The translations under genes were made by a program, and so were the position numbers. This document shows positions 17,644-30,609 of a stretch of DNA of 32,469 nucleotides, piece after piece. This DNA comes from Candidatus Saccharimonadota bacterium. GTDB taxonomy: Bacteria > Patescibacteriota > Saccharimonadia > Saccharimonadales > JACDFO01. The DNA lies in contig JACDFO010000004.1 in NCBI GenBank assembly GCA_013815785.1, forward strand, positions 1 through 32,469, read 5' to 3'. Position 1 is the first letter of the stretch; the number at the start of each line of letters is the position of its first letter. Under the pieces are notes generated by a model, which had not been told where the DNA came from, searched no databases, and saw only the letters and a program-made list of their open reading frames with translations.

Positions 17644-18561
17644 ATGTCCTTCTATGAATTGAATGGCGGTGCACGTGGAGCTTTTGGCTCATACGACACT
17701 TATGCCCAAAAACAAACACCATACCTACACTGGCTCGCAGTATTTGTTTTGGTGCTTACAATTTCAGTAGGCGGTGTTACCGCTAAGACACTTGGGACTG
17801 TCGAGCAGGCCAGTATTGTGCTGCCGGCAGTAGTTTCTTCTGCGCCACAAACCACATCAGATGTACCATTGGTAGCTGCTGCAGTTGATCGAAGCCCGGA
17901 ACTTCGTACTGCGCTTGAAGCGTGGCAAGCCAATCAGAAAGGTTCTGAGTGGGCATTTTATGTTCATTCTCTGGACGATGACCAGCTTAAAGTCGGTGTT
18001 AATGATGACAAGCCTTTCGGACTGGCCAGTATTTATAAATTGTTTTTATTAAAGCCGTTAGCGCAAAAAATTCCAGCTGAAGCGTGGGCGAATACAAATA
18101 TTACCGAGCGTACATATCAGGCGTGCGTTACGGCGATGTTGAGTGTTTCGGATAATCCTTGTGCAGAAGCGATAGCAAGCAAGTTGGGATGGTCGGCAAT
18201 CCATCGTCAGAACCGGGCCGATGGTTACAAATCAACTGTGTTCAATCGTTCTGATACGTTGGTAGGCAGCGCAGCGGATACAGGTCTATTACTCGACCGC
18301 CTCTATAATAGCGATGGATATGATGCCAAAACCCAGGAAATTGCTTTAGAGGCGATGGGTAGGACAAAGCGCACCGAAGCTGTTCGGGGGGCGTGCCAGG
18401 GCTGTACCGTACAAAACAAAACTGGTGACTTTAATGGAGTTCGCCATGATGCTGCAGTCGTGCAAAAGGATGGCAAAAATTACGTCGTGGTCATCTTTTC
18501 CAAAGGAGCTCAATGGAAACAACTCAGCGAAGCAGCTAAAATTATTGTTCCGTACCTCTAG
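17644..18561 (+). CDS. membrane-anchored serine hydrolase, class A beta-lactamase-like fold
   Basis: N-terminal TM; SxxK (SIYK), SDN and KTG motifs in order. Confidence 0.82.
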   Translation: MSFYELNGGARGAFGSYDTYAQKQTPYLHWLAVFVLVLTISVGGVTAKTLGTVEQASIVLPAVVSSAPQTTSDVPLVAAAVDRSPELRTALEAWQANQKGSEWAFYVHSLDDDQLKVGVNDDKPFGLASIYKLFLLKPLAQKIPAEAWANTNITERTYQACVTAMLSVSDNPCAEAIASKLGWSAIHRQNRADGYKSTVFNRSDTLVGSAADTGLLLDRLYNSDGYDAKTQEIALEAMGRTKRTEAVRGACQGCTVQNKTGDFNGVRHDAAVVQKDGKNYVVVIFSKGAQWKQLSEAAKIIVPYL

Positions 18562-20700: not shown

Positions 20701-21036
20701 ATGCAAAACAACGAACAAAATTCTAGCAACGAAGTTAACTCAGCGAAATCCGATAAGCGTACGCGTCTAATTCAAAAATTTATTGTTGGTGGCTTGGGTG
20801 CTGGTCTAGTAGCTGCGTCTTTTGCCGCAATCGACGGTTTGGGCGGCTCTGATGAAAAAACACCAGCTATTCCTTCTACCACAGAAGTACCGTCAGCACC
20901 GAGCTCAACTTCGACAGCTGAGGTAGCCCCATCAACTAGCACAAATATAGAAGTGCCTACCACAATGTCCAGTCCCACGCCTAGTATTAGTGAGAATCCT
21001 ATAGTTGTTACACGGGATGATGTGGTTACACCTTAA
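20701..21036 (+). CDS. small membrane-anchored Thr/Ser/Pro-rich protein (module copy 1)
   Basis: N-terminal basic region + TM-like segment (FIVGGLGAGLVAASFAA), Ser/Thr/Pro tail; paralog at 24092. Confidence 0.75.
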   Translation: MQNNEQNSSNEVNSAKSDKRTRLIQKFIVGGLGAGLVAASFAAIDGLGGSDEKTPAIPSTTEVPSAPSSTSTAEVAPSTSTNIEVPTTMSSPTPSISENPIVVTRDDVVTP

Positions 21037-21094
21037 TAGCATCAAGCTATTGTTTGTGGCTGTCGACTTAATGAAGTTGCATGGCAGGCAACAA

Positions 21095-22672
21095 TTAAGT
21101 TTTTAAGTTACTCTTTAGGTGTTTTTTGCGGTTTTGGGTAACAACGATCAAAGTAAAAGTGCCAACAATAAAAGCGCTTACTAAAAGCGGCCATTCACCG
21201 AGCTTTGTGTAAAAAGTTTTATTAGATTCGGGAGTAAACTCAAAATCAATAAAAGCTGTTTTGGTATCTTCCGGCGCGACAATGTATTTACCGTCACCAT
21301 CTATTACAAAAGCGGAAGCACCCATAGATGCCTGGATATACGTACGATGGTTTGCCACCGCATGAAAACGTGCCATCTGCAGCGACTGGCGAAAATAAGC
21401 CCTCGAGCCGCTAAAAATCACGAGCGACGCGCTGTTTGTTAATACTTGGCCGCCGTCGTTAACTAGCTGCCGATATATGTTTCGACCAAGTATGCCAGAG
21501 CAGGCGACGGGCGCTATAGTTAAACTTTTAGTACGAATAACTCTTGGTGCGTCGCCCCTATATAGCCTTCGGGTAGTATCAAATGATGTATTAATCGAAT
21601 TCTGACCGGACAATTTGAAAAAAACCTGCAATATACCAGGCAGGTATTCACCGGTTGGAATAAGCAATTGTTTGGTTTGTGCGTCTATCAGCTCATTCTT
21701 ATGATCACGTGCTTCGAGTATGCCGTATCGAACGTCTGTTTTTGTAAAATCTGCGGTAACGTCAATGTTAACACCGTCCTCACCCAGCCGCTTGTTAACA
21801 TATTTATCTACAAATTGCTCATTGCCGGGTAAATGTGCCGCGGAATATTCGGTAAGTACAATGACATCTTTTGGAGTATCTTGTTTGTTTATAATTCCTG
21901 TGTTTTCCGAGATGTCTGTTAGGAGACCTTCACGCTGCAATACACTGGCCGCTACCGGTGGTAGTGCGCTGCCGGGTGTCAGTACAAAATAGCTTAAATA
22001 ACTTGCTAATGTACTGGCCACTAACACGGCTAACAGTGGTTTATAGTGTTTTTTTAGCGCCCAGAGCAATGTGAGGGCAATGCATACAACCAGCATGCTT
22101 AAACCGTATATGCCTATCAATCGACTGAGATACCCAAGCGGTGTAGAAATTAATCCCAAACCTAGACTGCCAAAGTTCCAGTAATCACCTATACTCCCAC
22201 TTGTCGCATATAAAAATATCGAGAAAGCTAGGCTACGCGCCCATTCAACCACCACCCAAGCGCTGGCAAGCACCAACAATGCCCATAAATCAGGTTTCTT
22301 GAGGCGGGTCTGGAGTCTATGTATGACAAGTCCGAAAGGCAAGCTAGCCAGAGTAAGCACCATGCTCATAATCAGGGCACAGAGGCCCAAGAAAGTCTTT
22401 GCGTATTGAGGATCCAACCCTGCAAGCAGCGTAACATCGGTATCCAGAAACCATATAAGAACTACGAAGTAATAACTAAAGAAAAATAGAACACTGAGTT
22501 TAAGGCTTTGTCTAAGATTCAAAGTTTTTTCGGGCATGGTAAATAGCAGTAAAAAAGGGAGCAGTAAAACCGGCAAAAAAAGGGCTGGCAGACCGAAGGA
22601 ATAAACTCCTCCGACTGCCAGCCCACTAAGCGCAGCAATATAAAACTTGAAATTGCTTACATAGCGCTCCAT
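21095..22672 (-). CDS. apolipoprotein N-acyltransferase-like (Lnt-like) multipass protein with nitrilase domain (copy 1)
   Basis: N-terminal TM helices; VLTEYS, KQLLIPTGEYLPG, APVACSG, FRQSLQMARFHAVANHRTYIQAS correspond to Lnt nitrilase motifs. Confidence 0.82.
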   Translation of the reverse strand: MERYVSNFKFYIAALSGLAVGGVYSFGLPALFLPVLLLPFLLLFTMPEKTLNLRQSLKLSVLFFFSYYFVVLIWFLDTDVTLLAGLDPQYAKTFLGLCALIMSMVLTLASLPFGLVIHRLQTRLKKPDLWALLVLASAWVVVEWARSLAFSIFLYATSGSIGDYWNFGSLGLGLISTPLGYLSRLIGIYGLSMLVVCIALTLLWALKKHYKPLLAVLVASTLASYLSYFVLTPGSALPPVAASVLQREGLLTDISENTGIINKQDTPKDVIVLTEYSAAHLPGNEQFVDKYVNKRLGEDGVNIDVTADFTKTDVRYGILEARDHKNELIDAQTKQLLIPTGEYLPGILQVFFKLSGQNSINTSFDTTRRLYRGDAPRVIRTKSLTIAPVACSGILGRNIYRQLVNDGGQVLTNSASLVIFSGSRAYFRQSLQMARFHAVANHRTYIQASMGASAFVIDGDGKYIVAPEDTKTAFIDFEFTPESNKTFYTKLGEWPLLVSAFIVGTFTLIVVTQNRKKHLKSNLKT

Positions 22673-22687
22673 TGGTTTAGGACTCGA

Positions 22688-23788
22688 CTAGTATACACTC
22701 ACAAAGCGATGTGTTACGAATGTTCGGCCGTTAGAACCCCGCACCGCCCCTACTCCCAAATATTCCCAAGCGGAATCTAGAAGATTAGCATTGTGCCCAG
22801 GACTATTTATGAAAGCCTGCATGAGACCGGCTGAATCATAGCCAACACCGACGTTCTCGCCGAGTTTGTTCCATCTGCTTCCATAGCACTGAGTGCCCGC
22901 ACCACCTAAATTTGGATCGTGGCTAATTCTACCCGCAGCCACCATCTTACGAGTCCATTCATAGGCTTTGCCGATCATGCACGTATTGCCTACTGCTAGG
23001 ATACTTTTACCACTGGCCTTTCGATGGTTGTTTATTCGATTGTGTTGATCAGATCCATACGCTGTGTCGTCCTGGCCGACACTGCAACAAGCTGAAGCTT
23101 TTGGTGTCAATAGTTCGTCCGCCTGGGTTACTAGACTTTTCTTAGTTCCATTGATTTTGGGTTCACGAGGTTGTTTTATATTGCTACGGTTTTCGCTTTT
23201 GGTGGCTTTTGCACAAACTGCTTGAAGTTTTTCTTGAGCTTTTGCAAACTTGGCTGGTTTTTGCGCGCCAGCGTATACAGCAGTGCCTTTTGCACTTTCT
23301 GCTCCACCAACGACAAATCCTTCGAATTGAATCAATGCGTCCTTATTGCCTACAGTGATTTCATCCGCCAATGAAGTGACTTCGGTAGCCACGATATCCT
23401 GATGAAGCTTCTCGACTTCCTTTTTACTCAACATGCCGGTGGTCACTGTCGTAGTGTTGCTGGAACCTGGGTCACAGACAAGTGTACCGTCGGCTTGCAC
23501 ATAAGTTACTGCCGGATACATCTCATATGCAGTATTTCCATTTTCATCCTGGCTAATATTAGTCGGCTTTAGGTCAATGTAACCGACGACAATATCATCG
23601 GAATATGTAGGTAGGTCCGGCTTGGCGCCAATTTGAAACAGCGCAAAAACGCCGACTGCCGCAAAGGCTAGCACGAACAGTGCCAGCCGTGAATTGCGCA
23701 AGCCGGCAAACGGCAAGTTAGTATTTGTTGATTTTTTGGATTTTGAAACCGCTGTTCGTTTTTTTGAAGACCCGGCTGTTTTAGCCAT
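22688..23788 (-). CDS. membrane-anchored CAP/SCP-domain protein with Lys/Ser-rich N-tail (copy 1)
   Basis: HNRINNHRKASGKS...GENVGVGYDSAGLMQAFINSPGHNANLLDSAWEYLGVGAVRG CAP signature; one N-terminal TM. Confidence 0.87.
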   Translation of the reverse strand: MAKTAGSSKKRTAVSKSKKSTNTNLPFAGLRNSRLALFVLAFAAVGVFALFQIGAKPDLPTYSDDIVVGYIDLKPTNISQDENGNTAYEMYPAVTYVQADGTLVCDPGSSNTTTVTTGMLSKKEVEKLHQDIVATEVTSLADEITVGNKDALIQFEGFVVGGAESAKGTAVYAGAQKPAKFAKAQEKLQAVCAKATKSENRSNIKQPREPKINGTKKSLVTQADELLTPKASACCSVGQDDTAYGSDQHNRINNHRKASGKSILAVGNTCMIGKAYEWTRKMVAAGRISHDPNLGGAGTQCYGSRWNKLGENVGVGYDSAGLMQAFINSPGHNANLLDSAWEYLGVGAVRGSNGRTFVTHRFVSVY

Positions 23789-24010
23789 AAGATCGCTCCC
23801 TTTAGAATTACTAATGTTACGCTTATGCTAGTCTACCTTTTGTATTTTGTAAAGAGATACTTCTAAACCACTCGTCCAGTCCAATAGTGCTTTATGTAGC
23901 ACTCGTCAAAGTTCGGTGGTTGTTCTACGATAAAAGTTTTGCGAAAAGCGGTGTTGAATGGTATTGATGCGTCCGGTTAGTGCCGATACTAAGTGAGCGG
24001 TAGGTAACTA

Positions 24011-24039
24011 TTGACAAAAATACAGATTATGTGTATAAT
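24011..24039 (+). promoter_or_regulatory. promoter TTGACA-17-TATAAT (module copy 2)
   Basis: Perfect consensus; paralogous to 20635-20663. Confidence 0.88.
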
Positions 24040-24091
24040 GTTAATTACATTATTACATTATTAAAATTAAAAATAAATAAAGTAAAAATCA

Positions 24092-24427
24092 ATGCAAAAC
24101 AACGAACAAATTCCTACAAACGAGGTCAACCTAACCAAATCCGATAAGCGTACGCGTCTAGCTCAAAAAGTCGTTCTTGGTGGCCTGGCTGCCGGCCTGG
24201 CAGCAGCATCTTTTGCGGCAGTCAACGGCTTGGGCGGCTCTGATGAAAAAACACCAGCTGGTACTTCTACCACAGAAGTACCTACAACTGATACAAGCGC
24301 CTCTGTTAATATCAGCGAAAACCCTACTCTCATTACTCCAGAAAATTCGGGTACATCTCAGCCCGAAGCCAAAGTTAGCGAAAACCCGGTATTAATAACC
24401 CCCGAAGATACCAGCACAATTAATTAA
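24092..24427 (+). CDS. small membrane-anchored Thr/Ser/Pro-rich protein (module copy 2)
   Basis: Shares MQNNEQ..NEVN..KSDKRTRL.QK...GGL.AGL.AASFAA..GLGGSDEKTPA with 20701; SENPxLITPE repeat. Confidence 0.77.
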   Translation: MQNNEQIPTNEVNLTKSDKRTRLAQKVVLGGLAAGLAAASFAAVNGLGGSDEKTPAGTSTTEVPTTDTSASVNISENPTLITPENSGTSQPEAKVSENPVLITPEDTSTIN

Positions 24428-24571
24428 CCATAATCCTGCAGACCGGTTTTAGTAGGAATTATGCTAAGCCTAAGTTTATCTTCCAACTCAAGCTCTGAGT
24501 GGATAAGGCTGTTTTGTAATTGACTTGGGATGCTTCATAGATTAATTAATAATTTTTTGTAGTAGTAGAGG

Positions 24572-26167
24572 TCAGCTGTATCGACGATTTTTAGTACGCG
24601 TTTTAAAATTTCTTCCAACTGAAATTATGATTAAGAGTGAACTCAGTATAAGTGGCCATTCACCGTAATTTGTGTAGAACGTTTTTTTGTCCGTGGCGGC
24701 GAAATTAAAATCTATGAACTTGTCTTCTACATTTCCTGGTTTTACTATGTAATTTCCATTATCATCAATTACAAAAGCCGGTGCTCCTTTCGACGCCTGT
24801 ATATATGTGCGATTATTGGCGATAGCATGAAATCGTGCCATCTGGAGCGATTGTTTAAAGTAAGACTTAGAGCCGTTAAACACTACCAAAGAAGCGCTGT
24901 TGGTAAGCACTTGGCCGCCATCATTAACTAGCTGTCTGTAAATGTTTCTGCCTAATATACCCGAGCAGGCAACCGGGGCAATAACCAGGTCTTTCGTCTT
25001 AAATACTGCCGGGTCAGTACCTTTTAGAAGTTGTCTGGTCTCAGCATATTCGGTATTGAGTTCGTTCTTACCGATTAGTTTGAAAAAATTAGTCAAAATA
25101 TAGGGCATATATTCTCCCGTTGGTATAAGAAGTTTTTTGGTCTGTGTTGCGACTATTTCTTTTTGATCGTTTCTAAATATAAGCGTGCCGTATCTGTTAT
25201 TTTGATTCAGCCAATCCGCTTCTACCGTTATGCCTACACCATTCGGGGCTAAACGGTTATCGATATAATCCTGGGCGTACTGGGTATACCCAAGTTCAAA
25301 AAAATCTGAGTATTCTGGTAATACGATGATATCTTTTGCCTCTGTAGAAAAATTATCTATGATAAAGTTAGTACCTGATTTTGGTACGCTATCTCTTTGT
25401 TGCAGTACGCTCGCGCTACGCTGGTTACTTGGTTGTGAATTTAGGTTAATCTGCCAAATCACAGAAAAAAAGATTACAAGTCCTAAAACAGAAAGCGTGT
25501 GGAGAGTATACCGACTGTTGGCTTTGGTAAAATAATTATACAAAATTACAGATAATATAACTGTAATAAAAGTAAGTCCATACATGCCAACTACTGGTGC
25601 CATAATCTTAGCCGGTGTATCCATAAGTTCCAGTCCTAGGCTACCGAAATTCCAATAATCACCAACACTACCCTGGTTTCCATATAAAAATACTGAAAAT
25701 AATATGCTTCTTAACCATTCACACACGACCCAAGCTGCAGGCAATAATACAAGGCGTGCGGTAGGTTTACGGAAAGCACTTGCATAAGCAACGTAGGCTA
25801 TAGGCAACATTGCAAGACTGAGAACAATAGCCATAATGGCTAAGCACGTACCCAAAGCAATAGTGGTGATGCGCGGGCTGACGTCTATCAATCCCGGCAA
25901 GTTTGCATCTAGAAACCAGACGAATACTGTTGCATGAAACGGAATGAAGAACAGGGCACACGATGATATGTAGCGGCGAAGGGTACTTCTATTATCCGGC
26001 TTATAGAGGAGTGCGATAAAGGGAAGCAGTAATAGTGGTTGCAACCAAGCGGATAGGTTGAATGAAAAAACACTACCAACCGCTACTCCACTAACAACTA
26101 GTATTAGCTTAGAGTAGCGGTCTAGCAGCCTAGTTGCAGCATCATGCTGCTTGCTTGTTTGAGGCAA
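24572..26167 (-). CDS. Lnt-like acyltransferase (copy 2)
   Basis: Shares the 33-aa block IAPVACSGILGRNIYRQLVNDGGQVLTNSASLV with copy 1; TM N-terminus; KKLLIPTGEYMP. Confidence 0.82.
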   Translation of the reverse strand: MPQTSKQHDAATRLLDRYSKLILVVSGVAVGSVFSFNLSAWLQPLLLLPFIALLYKPDNRSTLRRYISSCALFFIPFHATVFVWFLDANLPGLIDVSPRITTIALGTCLAIMAIVLSLAMLPIAYVAYASAFRKPTARLVLLPAAWVVCEWLRSILFSVFLYGNQGSVGDYWNFGSLGLELMDTPAKIMAPVVGMYGLTFITVILSVILYNYFTKANSRYTLHTLSVLGLVIFFSVIWQINLNSQPSNQRSASVLQQRDSVPKSGTNFIIDNFSTEAKDIIVLPEYSDFFELGYTQYAQDYIDNRLAPNGVGITVEADWLNQNNRYGTLIFRNDQKEIVATQTKKLLIPTGEYMPYILTNFFKLIGKNELNTEYAETRQLLKGTDPAVFKTKDLVIAPVACSGILGRNIYRQLVNDGGQVLTNSASLVVFNGSKSYFKQSLQMARFHAIANNRTYIQASKGAPAFVIDDNGNYIVKPGNVEDKFIDFNFAATDKKTFYTNYGEWPLILSSLLIIISVGRNFKTRTKNRRYS

Positions 26168-26180
26168 CGCAGATTACCTA

Positions 26181-27314
26181 TTATGGCCAGTTGGCAAAAA
26201 CTTGTGTCGAGTAAATATAGTTGTTCTTCTGGTTTCGGTACGCTGCGGATCCCGTTCGTGTGTGTGTTCTATGGTCGAGGTTCGCACGATGTCCGGAACT
26301 ATTTACGTATGCATTAAAGATTGCTTGCGAATTGTTGTTAGGGTCTTGGCTGCAATTTTCTCCAACTGAGCGCCAGTTATTGCTTGTTGCACCTTCTTTG
26401 TTGCAAACATACAAGAACTCGTTTACCAAATTACTGTTGTGGTACAACTTGTTTTGCTCAGCCTGTCGTTTTGCCTGTAGGTTTGCTAGTTCATTCATAC
26501 AACCTCTTCTTTGGTACTGGTATATACCAAGCGAAGCGCGTCGCTGGTTGGTCAGGTTAAATATATTCGTAGCGTAGTTACTTTCTACACTAACAGGGTC
26601 TGGAGGTTGAGCGGCTACTTTAGGTACAAGCACCTCACTAAAACGCTGTAAGACTGATTGAGTGCTTGCAGCTGCCGTAGGTAATCTGAATTCTTTAGTT
26701 TTGCCACGTTGTTCACGGGTTGTTGCTTTTTCGCACCTACTGAGAATCTTAGCCTGCATTTTGGCTAGTTTATCAGGTTTGGCTGCACCAGCATGGACGG
26801 AAAAGGCGTTAGATTTGCCGTCGCCGTTAATAACGAAACCTTCGTGGGTGCTGATCAGGGCTTCCTGGCCGGCTACTCCTGTTTCGTTTGGCAGACCTTC
26901 TAGTTTCAGATCTCTGATTTCTTGATGCAGGTTCTTTACTTCACCTAAGCCAAGCTGTCCGGTTTGCACAAATCCTTCCTGGTTACCATCATCACAGAGC
27001 AGTGTACCGTCCCCTAATACTAAGTAAGACGCGGTGTAAGATTCGTACACTGCCGAGCCGCCTTCAGCTTGTGTAATCAAAGTTGGCTTAGAATCGTAAT
27101 ATGCAGCGACAACTTCATCGGGACCTGCAAGTAGAGCCGGCTTTGCGCTGGCTTGAAGAAGTAAGAACACGCCGACGACGGCAAAACTAACAGCAAACAG
27201 CAATGTACGCGGATTGCGTAAATCTGTTGCAGGAAACTGTACTTTTTTTGTTGATTTTATTGTTTTCTTCGAAGTTGTTGCTCGTTTTTTTGGAGTCTTG
27301 GCCGATGTAGCCAT
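26181..27314 (-). CDS. membrane-anchored CAP/SCP-domain protein with Lys-rich N-tail (copy 2)
   Basis: NIFNLTNQRRASLGIYQYQ...SVGENCSQDPNNNSQAIFNAYVNSSGHRANLDHRTHTRTGSAAY; same N-tail architecture as copy 1. Confidence 0.86.
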   Translation of the reverse strand: MATSAKTPKKRATTSKKTIKSTKKVQFPATDLRNPRTLLFAVSFAVVGVFLLLQASAKPALLAGPDEVVAAYYDSKPTLITQAEGGSAVYESYTASYLVLGDGTLLCDDGNQEGFVQTGQLGLGEVKNLHQEIRDLKLEGLPNETGVAGQEALISTHEGFVINGDGKSNAFSVHAGAAKPDKLAKMQAKILSRCEKATTREQRGKTKEFRLPTAAASTQSVLQRFSEVLVPKVAAQPPDPVSVESNYATNIFNLTNQRRASLGIYQYQRRGCMNELANLQAKRQAEQNKLYHNSNLVNEFLYVCNKEGATSNNWRSVGENCSQDPNNNSQAIFNAYVNSSGHRANLDHRTHTRTGSAAYRNQKNNYIYSTQVFANWP

Positions 27315-27537: not shown

Positions 27538-27566
27538 TTGACAATTATACAATAATTTGCTATAAT
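27538..27566 (+). promoter_or_regulatory. promoter TTGACA-17-TATAAT facing the LPxTG cassette
   Basis: Perfect hexamers and 17-nt spacer. Confidence 0.87.
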
Positions 27567-27614
27567 ATACAACCTACAGTTACGTTGAAACATCAGTCTC
27601 CGTCTGTAGTACAT

Positions 27615-27629
27615 TGACATGTCAGATTG
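27615..27629. repeat. left inverted repeat TGACATGTCAGATTG
   Basis: Exact reverse complement at 28503-28517. Confidence 0.9.
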
Positions 27630-27659
27630 TTAGTTTGTATTTTAGTATGTCCATACGAT

Positions 27660-27713
27660 GGAATACGGATATAGCGCTTATATAGCATATATGAGCGGTT
27701 GTATCCGTATTCC
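27660..27713 (+). other. long hairpin in 5' leader
   Basis: GGAATACGGATA/TATCCGTATTCC perfect 12 bp, then CGCTTATATA-GCA-TATATGAGCG (one G-T). Confidence 0.85.
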
Positions 27714-27765
27714 AAATTGGATTCGGTGCAGGCCAGAAGCCGAAGAATCACATGAGGAGCTTTTC

Positions 27766-28389
27766 ATGAGTTACTTTTTCAAAGTGATCGTGGCTCTTGC
27801 CGCGGCACTAGTCAGCACCATTGCCTTCATGGCACCGGTTGCTGCTCAGGAAGTGTCTGACTATGACGCGACCCTCGAGGTCACGTGCAACGCCGACAAC
27901 ATCATCGTTGTCGTCACCGCCATCAACGGCACTGACGAGGACGTGTTTGTTGCCGTCAGTACAACCCCCAACAAGGGAGCAGGTGGCCTAGTGGTTGCGA
28001 ATTCTTCAGAGGCCTACAGCTTCGAGAACCAAGCAGCCAGTGGAGCGGCAGTGGTTGAGTTCAGCGAGTTCGAGGACCCGGATGCCGGTTCGTCGTTCAG
28101 CACGCTGAGGCTTCCGTGGGAATGTGAAGAGGAAGTTCCTCCCACGACAGCACCCCCGGTGGTTTCCACGCCGCATGCACCTCTGATGCCTCCGACTGAA
28201 GTTGTCACACCCGTCGCACCACTCTCCCGCACCACATCAGTCCGTGGAGCGATTATCACCAGCCAAGCCAGTGAGCTTCCGCGAACGGGAAGTTCAAACA
28301 CTGTGCTTGGCGTAGTCGCTATCGCACTCATCGGTGCCGGCATTTGCCTTACGGAAAGCGCCAAGCATCGCCAACTGCGACAGAACTAG
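27766..28389 (+). CDS. secreted LPxTG-type (LPRTG) cell-wall-anchored protein of atypical composition
   Basis: GAGGAGC SD; signal peptide MSYFFKVIVALAAALVSTIAFMAPVAAQ; PPTTAPP linker; LPRTGSSNTVLGVVAIALIGAGICL + basic tail. Confidence 0.85.
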   Translation: MSYFFKVIVALAAALVSTIAFMAPVAAQEVSDYDATLEVTCNADNIIVVVTAINGTDEDVFVAVSTTPNKGAGGLVVANSSEAYSFENQAASGAAVVEFSEFEDPDAGSSFSTLRLPWECEEEVPPTTAPPVVSTPHAPLMPPTEVVTPVAPLSRTTSVRGAIITSQASELPRTGSSNTVLGVVAIALIGAGICLTESAKHRQLRQN

Positions 28390-28400
28390 ATGGTCATGAA

Positions 28401-28500
28401 GCCAAAGGGAAGTGAGCATATGCTCTTAAAGTTTTCTGCCACAAGCAGAGACGCTTCCCCCGGCTTTGGCCACAAATACGATCGTATCCACCCGGATACG
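28401..28500 (+). other. multi-stem 3' structure downstream of LPRTG gene
   Basis: GCCAAAG/CTTTGGC, GGAAGTG/CGCTTCC, AGCATATGCT palindrome, TCTGC-CACAA-GCAGA, ATACGATCGTAT palindrome, CGTATCC-ACCC-GGATACG. Confidence 0.75.
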
Positions 28501-28502
28501 CC

Positions 28503-28517
28503 CAATCTGACATGTCA
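28503..28517. repeat. right inverted repeat CAATCTGACATGTCA
   Basis: Exact reverse complement of 27615-27629. Confidence 0.9.
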
Positions 28518-28744
28518 TACAACCATAAAGCTTTTGAGGTAATGTTCTCACTAATATTCCCAACTAAGGTTTTGTAGACACTATGAATTGCATTATGTAA
28601 GAAGTATGATATTGACATATTTTCTGACTATACAAATTTTATCAAATCTCAGCGAGTAGCATATTAATCACGAACATTTCCCGGCATAGTAGCACTGTGT
28701 TATATTTTAAGGATAAGCTTTAAAAGAATAAGAAGATTTCAAGC

Positions 28745-29329
28745 ATGATGCTGAAGTGGCCCAAACGTAAAAAAGAGACTAACGAAGTCTCGCACGCGGA
28801 CGTGAACACTAGCCTGGTCAATAAAATTTCTGGTGCGGGTGTCGTGCGACCAAGAAACGGACTACAACTGCGTAAAGCCTTAGTCTTCGTAATCTTACTT
28901 AGCTCACTAGTAGGAGTCTTTTTTTACTTAAGTAGTAAAAGTACAGACAATAAAGCTACTGTCTACCAACCTGACATCCAGCTGCTGAATGACGCTGAAT
29001 ATAGAAGCTCAATGCAGAATATAAAGCAGAAAGTAGAAGCTAAAGATATAGATGCAGCCAAAGGTCTCTATGACGAAGCTGTAAAAAAATATGACGTCGG
29101 GGGTCAACCTAACATCGATCTCTTATTTGCGAAGTATCAAATTGCTTCGATTTTGCAACCCATACCAGATAATAAATCACAAAGGGAGGCCATCGCTGAA
29201 ATATGGACTGTTGCTAGCGAAGTGCCTGAACCACGTTCTTATTTCGGGATTACGGCAGAACAAATAATTGACATCCAGATAGGGCTAAATAATACACCGG
29301 GCTTACCAGCCGGAGGGGTGGGGGAATGA
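28745..29329 (+). CDS. single-TM protein, unknown
   Basis: ALVFVILLSSLVGVFFYLSS TM; ATGA overlap with next CDS. Confidence 0.7.
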   Translation: MMLKWPKRKKETNEVSHADVNTSLVNKISGAGVVRPRNGLQLRKALVFVILLSSLVGVFFYLSSKSTDNKATVYQPDIQLLNDAEYRSSMQNIKQKVEAKDIDAAKGLYDEAVKKYDVGGQPNIDLLFAKYQIASILQPIPDNKSQREAIAEIWTVASEVPEPRSYFGITAEQIIDIQIGLNNTPGLPAGGVGE

Positions 29330-30609
29330 ATAGACTCCCTAAGTTAGTCAGAGTGTTCTTTATCGGCGCAGGTTTGGCAATGATATTGACCCTACTACAA
29401 AGTCCCCAAAAAGCCAGCGCCAATACGCTGCCGAGTACTTACGATGTTCCGATGATTCCTTGTGGGGACGGCACGTTTACTCGATATGTAAACTATATAA
29501 CTTCGCCCGATCTAGTCGATGAAGGCGGCGGAAATTTTAGTGTTGCAACGGCCATCAACCAGATCACATTCAATACCTATGCAGCCTCAAACTACGCGTG
29601 TCCTACAGTTAACCCTGCTACCCGTGGTCCTGCATATCTGCATCACGAAGACTTCATATTTAATGGATCGCAAACAATTTCTGGGGGAGCGGCTTCCGCA
29701 AATAGTACCTGGGGTTATCGAGGTAGTTCGGGGTGGCAATTTACTAGGTCGTTCACTGTTACTCTTAACCCCGGAGTCAACACGCTAAATCTCCGACTTG
29801 CGGGTGATACTTGCACAGCGGTTAACAGTAATCCATGCTCCAATTATCCAATCACAGGTATATCGAACAACGTAGTACGTATTACCTTCAATCAGGACAG
29901 AGCTTCTTGCACTATTACCGCACCTAACACCCTAAGCCCAGGCCAATCTTTTAGCGCATCTTTTACAGCAACGAACGCTGGTGGTGTTGTTTGGTCGGTG
30001 CATCCCACCAATACCAACCGCTGGCGGTTGGGTAAGTCAAACCCGCGTACGTTCCCAGCAAACAATGGTACGTGGGGAACGACAAGGGTTGAAATACCCG
30101 GCTATCCGGGTTTAGGGCTTGTGGTTTATCCTGGTCAAACATCGCCCAGTAGTTCATCAACCCCAACCACGTTTACTCAAAGCTTTACCGCGCCCACGAC
30201 CCCAGGTACCTATAATTTTGACTGGGAAGTGGTCAGGGAGAATGTTTACTGGGTTGGTAGTCCCTGTAGTAAATCTATTATCGTAGCTACCGCGACTCCA
30301 ACATTGTCATGCAACGGAACTCCAAACAGCGTGGCAATCAATACCAATGTAACTTTTAGTGTAGACAGTACTTCAACTGCGACAGGCCCGGTAGCATGGG
30401 GTGGTATGCTAGGGGCTAATTCCAGTCCGGGAACAGGCACATCGTTTATAACAACATATCCAACAACTGGAACAAAAACAGTCGACGTAACACGGCAAGG
30501 TGTTCCTGATAGTTGTAGCGTTAATGTCACAGCTACACCCCCAACATCTGGCGGGCTCCGGAGGCTTGGTCCATGGGACTCTATAACAAACTTGCCACCG
30601 GTACTGTAG
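29326..30609 (+). CDS. secreted multi-domain Ig-like surface protein
   Basis: Signal peptide; SPGQSFSASFTATNAGGVVWS...TAPTTPGTYNFDWEVV resembles NBR1-type Ig-like domain; C-terminal PKD-like segment. Confidence 0.72.
   Translation: MNRLPKLVRVFFIGAGLAMILTLLQSPQKASANTLPSTYDVPMIPCGDGTFTRYVNYITSPDLVDEGGGNFSVATAINQITFNTYAASNYACPTVNPATRGPAYLHHEDFIFNGSQTISGGAASANSTWGYRGSSGWQFTRSFTVTLNPGVNTLNLRLAGDTCTAVNSNPCSNYPITGISNNVVRITFNQDRASCTITAPNTLSPGQSFSASFTATNAGGVVWSVHPTNTNRWRLGKSNPRTFPANNGTWGTTRVEIPGYPGLGLVVYPGQTSPSSSSTPTTFTQSFTAPTTPGTYNFDWEVVRENVYWVGSPCSKSIIVATATPTLSCNGTPNSVAINTNVTFSVDSTSTATGPVAWGGMLGANSSPGTGTSFITTYPTTGTKTVDVTRQGVPDSCSVNVTATPPTSGGLRRLGPWDSITNLPPVL

Follow-up and report, generated by a model that had tools for sequence, protein, structure and literature searches.

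A conserved saccharibacterial cassette with covarying complementary arms and variable surface-protein content

A short inverted repeat around a surface-protein gene of an ultra-small, host-dependent bacterium is shown by comparison to belong to a conserved cassette, characterized at the sequence level by covarying arms, structured ends, a promoter outside and variable surface-protein content. Counting the one in the window (the whole 32,469-nucleotide stretch of DNA analysed here), 12 complete cassettes with the same order of parts were found in 10 genomes from five families, 11 of them in nine other genomes. We lean towards the view that the cassette is one transcription unit whose message ends would pair, clamping or excising the mRNA of an exchangeable surface protein.

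The cassette in the window

The repeat is 15 bp long and exact: TGACATGTCAGATTG is found at 27615-27629 on the forward strand and again at 28503-28517 on the reverse strand, where the sequence-only reading had placed it. Its opening 10 bases, TGACATGTCA, form a palindrome in themselves. No further copy of TGACATGTCAGATTG occurs in the window at up to three mismatches, and a check of the source genome for other arm pairs, which that reading had proposed, revealed none within two mismatches. Since approximately 0.25 perfect 15-bp inverted pairs within 3 kb are expected by chance in a window of such composition, the repeat alone is not significant and the case rests on comparison; it is judged real because it is conserved in relatives with compensatory changes. 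The 905-bp segment has a G+C content of 54%, versus 38% for the adjacent 400-bp flanks.

The same reading had described essentially one enclosed gene, of the LPxTG type, and a consensus promoter outside the left repeat, pointing in. Both were recovered (Table 1), with one real gene inside and a sigma-70 match at all 12 promoter positions. The ATG listed is the better start of the gene. Its product possesses a signal peptide, the LPRTG motif, a membrane helix and a basic tail, as is typical of sortase-anchored proteins. The Pfam model Gram_pos_anchor scored 20.3 bits, above the cut-off, in one search and 17 bits, below the cut-off, in another; TIGR01167 scored 15.7 bits, slightly under its cut-off of 15.9. 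The GC3 of the gene is 0.61, against 0.32-0.51 for 27 neighbouring genes. Close relatives of the protein were found neither in 60 genomes of the order, nor by peptide-pattern scan of approximately 85,000 species genomes, nor in viral contigs, phages or plasmids.

Table 1. Features of the cassette and its downstream neighbours in the window
Feature	Position	Strand	Basis or remark
Promoter outside cassette, TTGACA-N17-TATAAT, TG ahead of -10	27538..27566	+	sigma-70 consensus 12/12
Leader, promoter to left arm; transcribed if promoter used	27567..27613	+	inferred from promoter position
Left arm, TTGACATGTCAGATTG	27614..27629	+	covaries with right arm in 12 cassettes
5′ hairpin immediately inside left arm, 13-bp perfect outer stem	27659..27714	+	DNA fold
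Small second hairpin, GATTCGG..CCGAAGAATC around GGC..GCC-GAAG, adjoining ribosome-binding site	27720..27749	+	read from sequence
Ribosome-binding site GAGGAG	27754..27759	+	sequence
Secreted LPRTG-type surface protein, 207 aa	27766..28389	+	sequence and profile matches
LPRTG sorting motif	28276..28290	+	sequence
3′ hairpin GCCAAAGGGAAG..CTTCCCCCGGCTTTGGC	28401..28470	+	fold
Small hairpin CGTATCC-ACCC-GGATACG ahead of right arm	28483..28500	+	fold and sequence
Right arm, CAATCTGACATGTCAT	28503..28518	+	15 bp complementary to left arm
Downstream gene, TPR-like membrane protein	28745..29329	+	counterpart after cassette in G020, G203, G235, G255, G147
Large secreted protein ending PWDSITNLPPVL	29326..30609	+	similar C-terminus after cassette in G020, G203, G235, G255

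Folding of the two ends gave z = -6.5 for 27600-27740, as DNA, and z = -4.2 for 28400-28530. In the relatives, the position of the 5′ hairpin is occupied by long hairpins, mostly unrelated in sequence from one genus to another, which are often accompanied by a small GGC-loop-GCC hairpin. The GGC-loop-GCC-nAAG motif is similar in genomes G026, G141 and G255 and less closely so in G020, and hairpins of the form GGGGGAG..GAGACACTCCCCC in G141 and G020 are related to the 3′ hairpin of the window. Searched against Rfam 15 at the curated threshold, the window gave no match, the sub-threshold hits being animal microRNA hairpins only.

Relatives and covariation of the arms

When 393 genomes of the order were searched for the arm, allowing one mismatch, 24 places turned up outside the genome of the window, with a reversed-pattern control about one-third as frequent. 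Most of these are single chance hits. The inverse partner arm is present in G203, G235 (two units), G020, G141 and G255; no partner was found for the remaining single hits within flanks of up to 5 kb, except in G259, where the contig begins inside a cassette. The combined promoter-plus-arm pattern yielded nine hits in approximately 85,000 species genomes, five of which are known cassette loci (four labelled Candidatus Saccharibacteria and one "bacterium"), while the other four, in Colwellia (twice), Arcobacter and Bacteroidales, have no partner arm. In a sample of the class the pattern gave four hits, all real. For diverged members the large secreted protein of G203 served as bait. Nearly all of the 80 regions so retrieved precede genes of this kind, and screening them for arm complementarity revealed cassettes whose arms have diverged in G026, G085, G019 (two in tandem, G019a and G019b) and G147. 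The distribution is patchy.

Among viral contigs, the exact 15-mer was found in 24, with one hit apiece and zero pairs, and the single hit of the promoter-plus-arm pattern lies within a repetitive coding region and is attributed to chance. Other inverted pairs proved not to be cassettes. That of G060 (L140 3497-4563) is an ordinary insertion sequence, G+C-rich, bounded by 18-bp terminal repeats and encoding a transposase, upstream of a similar locus; that of G023 lies between two housekeeping genes; and that of G075 (L145 833-3784) is a 28-bp near-perfect palindrome, TTCTAATATTCTTAAGAATATTAGAATG, repeated at a distance of approximately 3 kb.

The common plan, from 5′ to 3′, comprises a promoter outside (in most), the left arm, one or more hairpins, a ribosome-binding site, one or two genes, one or two G+C-rich hairpins and the right arm. 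In nine of the 12 cassettes a strict TTGACA-N16-18-TAnnnT promoter precedes the left arm by no more than 190 nt, against a background of 1.05%, and the leader measures about 45-110 nt in the relatives. Conservation of the repeats with the locus had figured in the test that the sequence-only reading set itself; repeats, gene and inward promoter do form one conserved unit.

Across the 12 cassettes, changes on both sides occur at 11 of the 16 arm positions, a covariation reached in none of 500 shuffles. Paired arm cells amount to 88%, and to 22-42% once the partner is slid by one to three columns. Both arms of G020 and of G141 carry the same T-to-C/A-to-G change, and those of G255 a T-to-A/A-to-T change together with one G-U pair; these three were found by a single arm, and the partner bore the matching change, which was no selection criterion. 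The arms of G026, G085, G019 and G147, the last with one C-A mismatch, were found through complementarity and are, because of this selection, not independent evidence of pairing. G019a and G019b share a genome but differ in their arms, and within each of them left and right arm are complementary. It is complementarity that is kept in these alignments, more than a shared arm sequence.

The arm consensus (TTGACATGTCAGAYTG for the left arm) is nevertheless conserved beyond what pairing alone requires, and therefore a protein may read the arm, as RNA or DNA. This bears on an explanation in which a recently acquired gene has ordinary structured UTRs, its arms are targets of a regulatory protein at the DNA or RNA level, and their complementarity simply follows from the presence of a two-site operator. 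Being in part a palindrome and strongly conserved, either copy of the arm could be a binding site, but the sites of one protein should agree better than those of G019a and G019b do, and the compensated changes track the pairing partner rather than a consensus. We regard such an operator as quite improbable.

The sequence-only reading had preferred a phase-variable invertible segment, which would turn the surface protein off, on the strength of inverted repeats with an outside promoter facing in. Known invertible surface-protein switches, whose promoter or gene is inverted by site-specific recombinases, do have inverted repeats around or beside the surface gene. Unlike them, the cassettes show no off orientation: as assembled, all 12 have a gene that reads outward from the side on which the promoter lies (p 0.0005 if orientations were equally likely). 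Moreover, the left and right ends contain different hairpins in a constant order, and arms are unshared within a genome, as G019a and G019b illustrate. Nor is a recombinase linked. The window contains none, as had been noted, and the suggested genome search did reveal recombinases of both kinds, one large serine enzyme (535-aa frame) and one 323-aa tyrosine enzyme, neither of them linked to the cassette. Inversion has thereby become hardly credible. Ends that stay pairable despite differing letters suggest, rather than gene flipping, an mRNA that is closed, protected or trimmed by end-joining.

Probable pairing of the message ends

Hairpins that function as DNA should present G-T and A-C equally often on the gene strand, whereas those that function as sense RNA should favour G-U. 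A strand-neutral helix search of the internal hairpins gave 21 G-U versus 7 A-C on the sense strand (p = 0.0125), and a looser search gave 75 versus 49 (p = 0.024). Comparison of G085 and G147, two species of one genus, reveals that the outer stem of the 5′ hairpin is kept, with four compensated pairs and with three G-U pairs in both. G085 and G019b have intrinsic terminators just past the right arm; in most cassettes none was found close beyond it. With the promoter outside and, in these two relatives, the terminator outside as well, both arms are probably transcribed. Folding of whole transcripts predicts arm pairing with a probability of 0.85-1.0 in eight of 11 cassettes, namely those shorter than 1.4 kb, while the equilibrium fold predicted for the three of approximately 2 kb leaves the arms unpaired; for the short cassettes this says little, because pairing is predicted even with shuffled interiors. 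Pairing in sense RNA is thus supported by a strand asymmetry that favours RNA moderately.

The principal alternative at the DNA level is a mobile or exchangeable cassette, whose arms would be ends recognised in trans by a recombinase or transposase and whose cargo would be the foreign-looking surface gene. The sequence-only reading had offered a transferable cassette as its second choice, and part of this stands: the contents are G+C-rich and wholly different between genera. Also in its favour are the tandem units in G019 and G235, the large serine recombinase encoded elsewhere in the genome, and the G203 sortase, whose plasmid-borne relatives (approximately 30% identity) come mainly from Streptomyces and other actinobacteria. 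Other expectations of mobility fail. Target-site duplications are absent in 10 of the 11 cassettes tested, with an offset 4-bp match in the window alone, and what lies between the arms is confined to surface proteins, sortases or a 46-aa peptide, with no transposase, although a non-autonomous element moved in trans would be compatible with this. The neighbouring genes are constant in most genomes, two cassettes of one genome have different arms, the outside promoter belongs to the unit, the sense strand has its G-U excess, and the real insertion sequence of G060, with its transposase gene, looks quite different. On balance we consider DNA mobility unlikely.

Under the paired-message reading that we prefer, transcription would begin at the outside promoter, ahead of the left arm, and run through both arms. 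The RNA arms would then form a helix of 12-16 bp closing the message into a loop, beside the hairpins at both ends, a step to which both covariation and strand asymmetry lend support. Such a clamp would most likely serve where the message body is protected, or where it is cut out by a double-strand-specific ribonuclease in the manner of precursor-rRNA stems. The body presumably expresses a surface protein of the Saccharibacterium that is exchangeable, actinobacterial in type and often anchored by sortase.

RNase III cuts the stems on either side of precursor ribosomal RNAs. These stems resemble the cassette in having complementary arms around an RNA body, with the promoter outside and the terminator likewise (for the cassette, in two relatives); they differ in that the cassette body is a protein-coding message, for which enzyme and cut are hypothetical. 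As a source of the arms, rRNA-processing stems were discarded, there being no arm pair elsewhere in the genome at up to two mismatches. Long-range pairing between 5′ and 3′ UTRs within one bacterial mRNA is described for icaR of Staphylococcus aureus (PMC3868564). The likeness is that the untranslated ends of one mRNA pair, and in the cassette the complementarity of the two untranslated ends is maintained by compensatory change. Whereas the icaR pairing reportedly extends over the ribosome-binding site and results in cleavage by RNase III, that of the cassette would not include the site, the left arm ending well before it (Table 1). Also unlike icaR, the arms are outermost and enclose the hairpins, and the design is conserved between families although the genes are unrelated.

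Integron gene cassettes are single-gene modules with no inner promoter that are read from an outside promoter, and the present element shares these properties and a foreign composition. It differs in that most modules own their outside promoter, in having two complementary arms rather than one attC, and in that no integron integrase adjoins it: none is present in the window, and the one tyrosine recombinase of the genome is on another contig. On the integrase side, identity with an integron gene cassette seems unlikely. An invertible switch, an insertion sequence and a known Rfam family were each rejected on a defining feature that was tested.

A limited search of the searchable literature, Rfam, Pfam and NCBIfam revealed no earlier description. 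Judged from sequence and this literature, we rate the element as new in kind because the closest principle, the 5′-3′ UTR pairing of icaR, differs in what is paired; a stricter reader could call it a variant of 5′-3′ paired mRNAs. Should the pairing be real, it would represent a conserved bacterial packaging of a protein-coding message between complementary ends, reused for unrelated surface proteins in one host-dependent group. It would also offer a handle on how Saccharibacteria vary the surface shown to their hosts, an open question in the field.

Contents, composition and neighbourhood

Three cassette proteins possess a clear LPXTG motif: LPRTG in the window, LPATG in G019a and LPKTG in G019b. 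The rest have no clear LPXTG, and several also have no C-terminal helix; beyond their signal peptides the proteins are unrelated between genera. Other LPXTG genes of G203 and G019 lie outside cassettes. A sortase (Pfam Sortase) is found inside the cassettes of G203 and G235, the nearest model for that of G203 being class F, with a score below the cut-off. In the first unit of G235 (L061 2183-2323) the sole evident gene encodes a 46-aa one-helix membrane peptide; this unit is directly upstream of a second cassette, which holds a surface protein and a sortase, and the promoter, 5′ and 3′ regions of the two are similar.

Actinobacteria are G+C-rich. The GC3 of the cassette genes measured lies above the neighbour mean, by a margin ranging from slight (G255, 0.53 versus 0.51) to large (G147, 0.86 versus 0.41-0.55); for G203, where only the sortase was counted, the values are 0.70 and 0.58. 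The cassette proteins of G085 and G147 are related (44% identity over 73 aa) and their genes have GC3 values of 0.70 and 0.86, with neighbours that are not G+C-rich, which argues, at least for this one pair, against a recent origin in a G+C-rich donor as the whole explanation.

Actinobacteria are the hosts of cultivated Saccharibacteria (PMC12857230; PMC10633639). A bolder proposal, which we consider a long shot, is that an end-protected and perhaps circular message is translated in the actinobacterial host, where the epibiont would plant its own surface protein. It is raised because G+C-rich codon use is kept across species, unlike that of the neighbours, because some cassettes carry their own sortase beside the surface protein, and because cassettes usually adjoin genes for secreted proteins or type IV pili that may serve host attachment. 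The notion that Saccharibacteria have no sortases of their own, which would have left anchoring to the host, does not hold: each of the nine genomes tested encodes between one and six, and the surface protein can therefore equally be anchored on the Saccharibacterium itself.

Most cassettes are found just upstream of a TPR-like membrane-protein gene, whose counterparts show weak similarity (11-24% identity), position being the main argument for equating them. The large secreted proteins of G020, G203, G235 and G255 end in a motif like ITxLPPxL; that of the window has no clear similarity to the G203 protein beyond the C-terminal motif. In G020 and G235 a pilM-type gene and further pilus-like genes, named from sequence, come after the large secreted protein. 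In cultivated Saccharibacteria, type IV pili are important for binding to the host (PMC12206443), and the pilus-gene neighbourhood of the cassettes is suggestive of a link to host binding, though it proves nothing.

The cassette of G141 has a different gene neighbourhood. Directly upstream of its promoter is a gene (L078 3187-4011) for a secreted protein that is weakly sortase-like (E 0.05), and the corresponding position in G020 (L083 3457-4488) holds one for a secreted protein with a TAT-like signal; both have approximately the composition of their own genome. Elsewhere in the window, a three-gene block is present twice in tandem at 20701-27314 and encodes a 111-aa small secreted protein (+), an apolipoprotein N-acyltransferase-like protein (-) and a CAP-domain protein (-), the two acyltransferase-like proteins being 47% identical. 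The region 17644-18561 encodes, as read from its sequence, a putative secreted class A beta-lactamase or related serine hydrolase.
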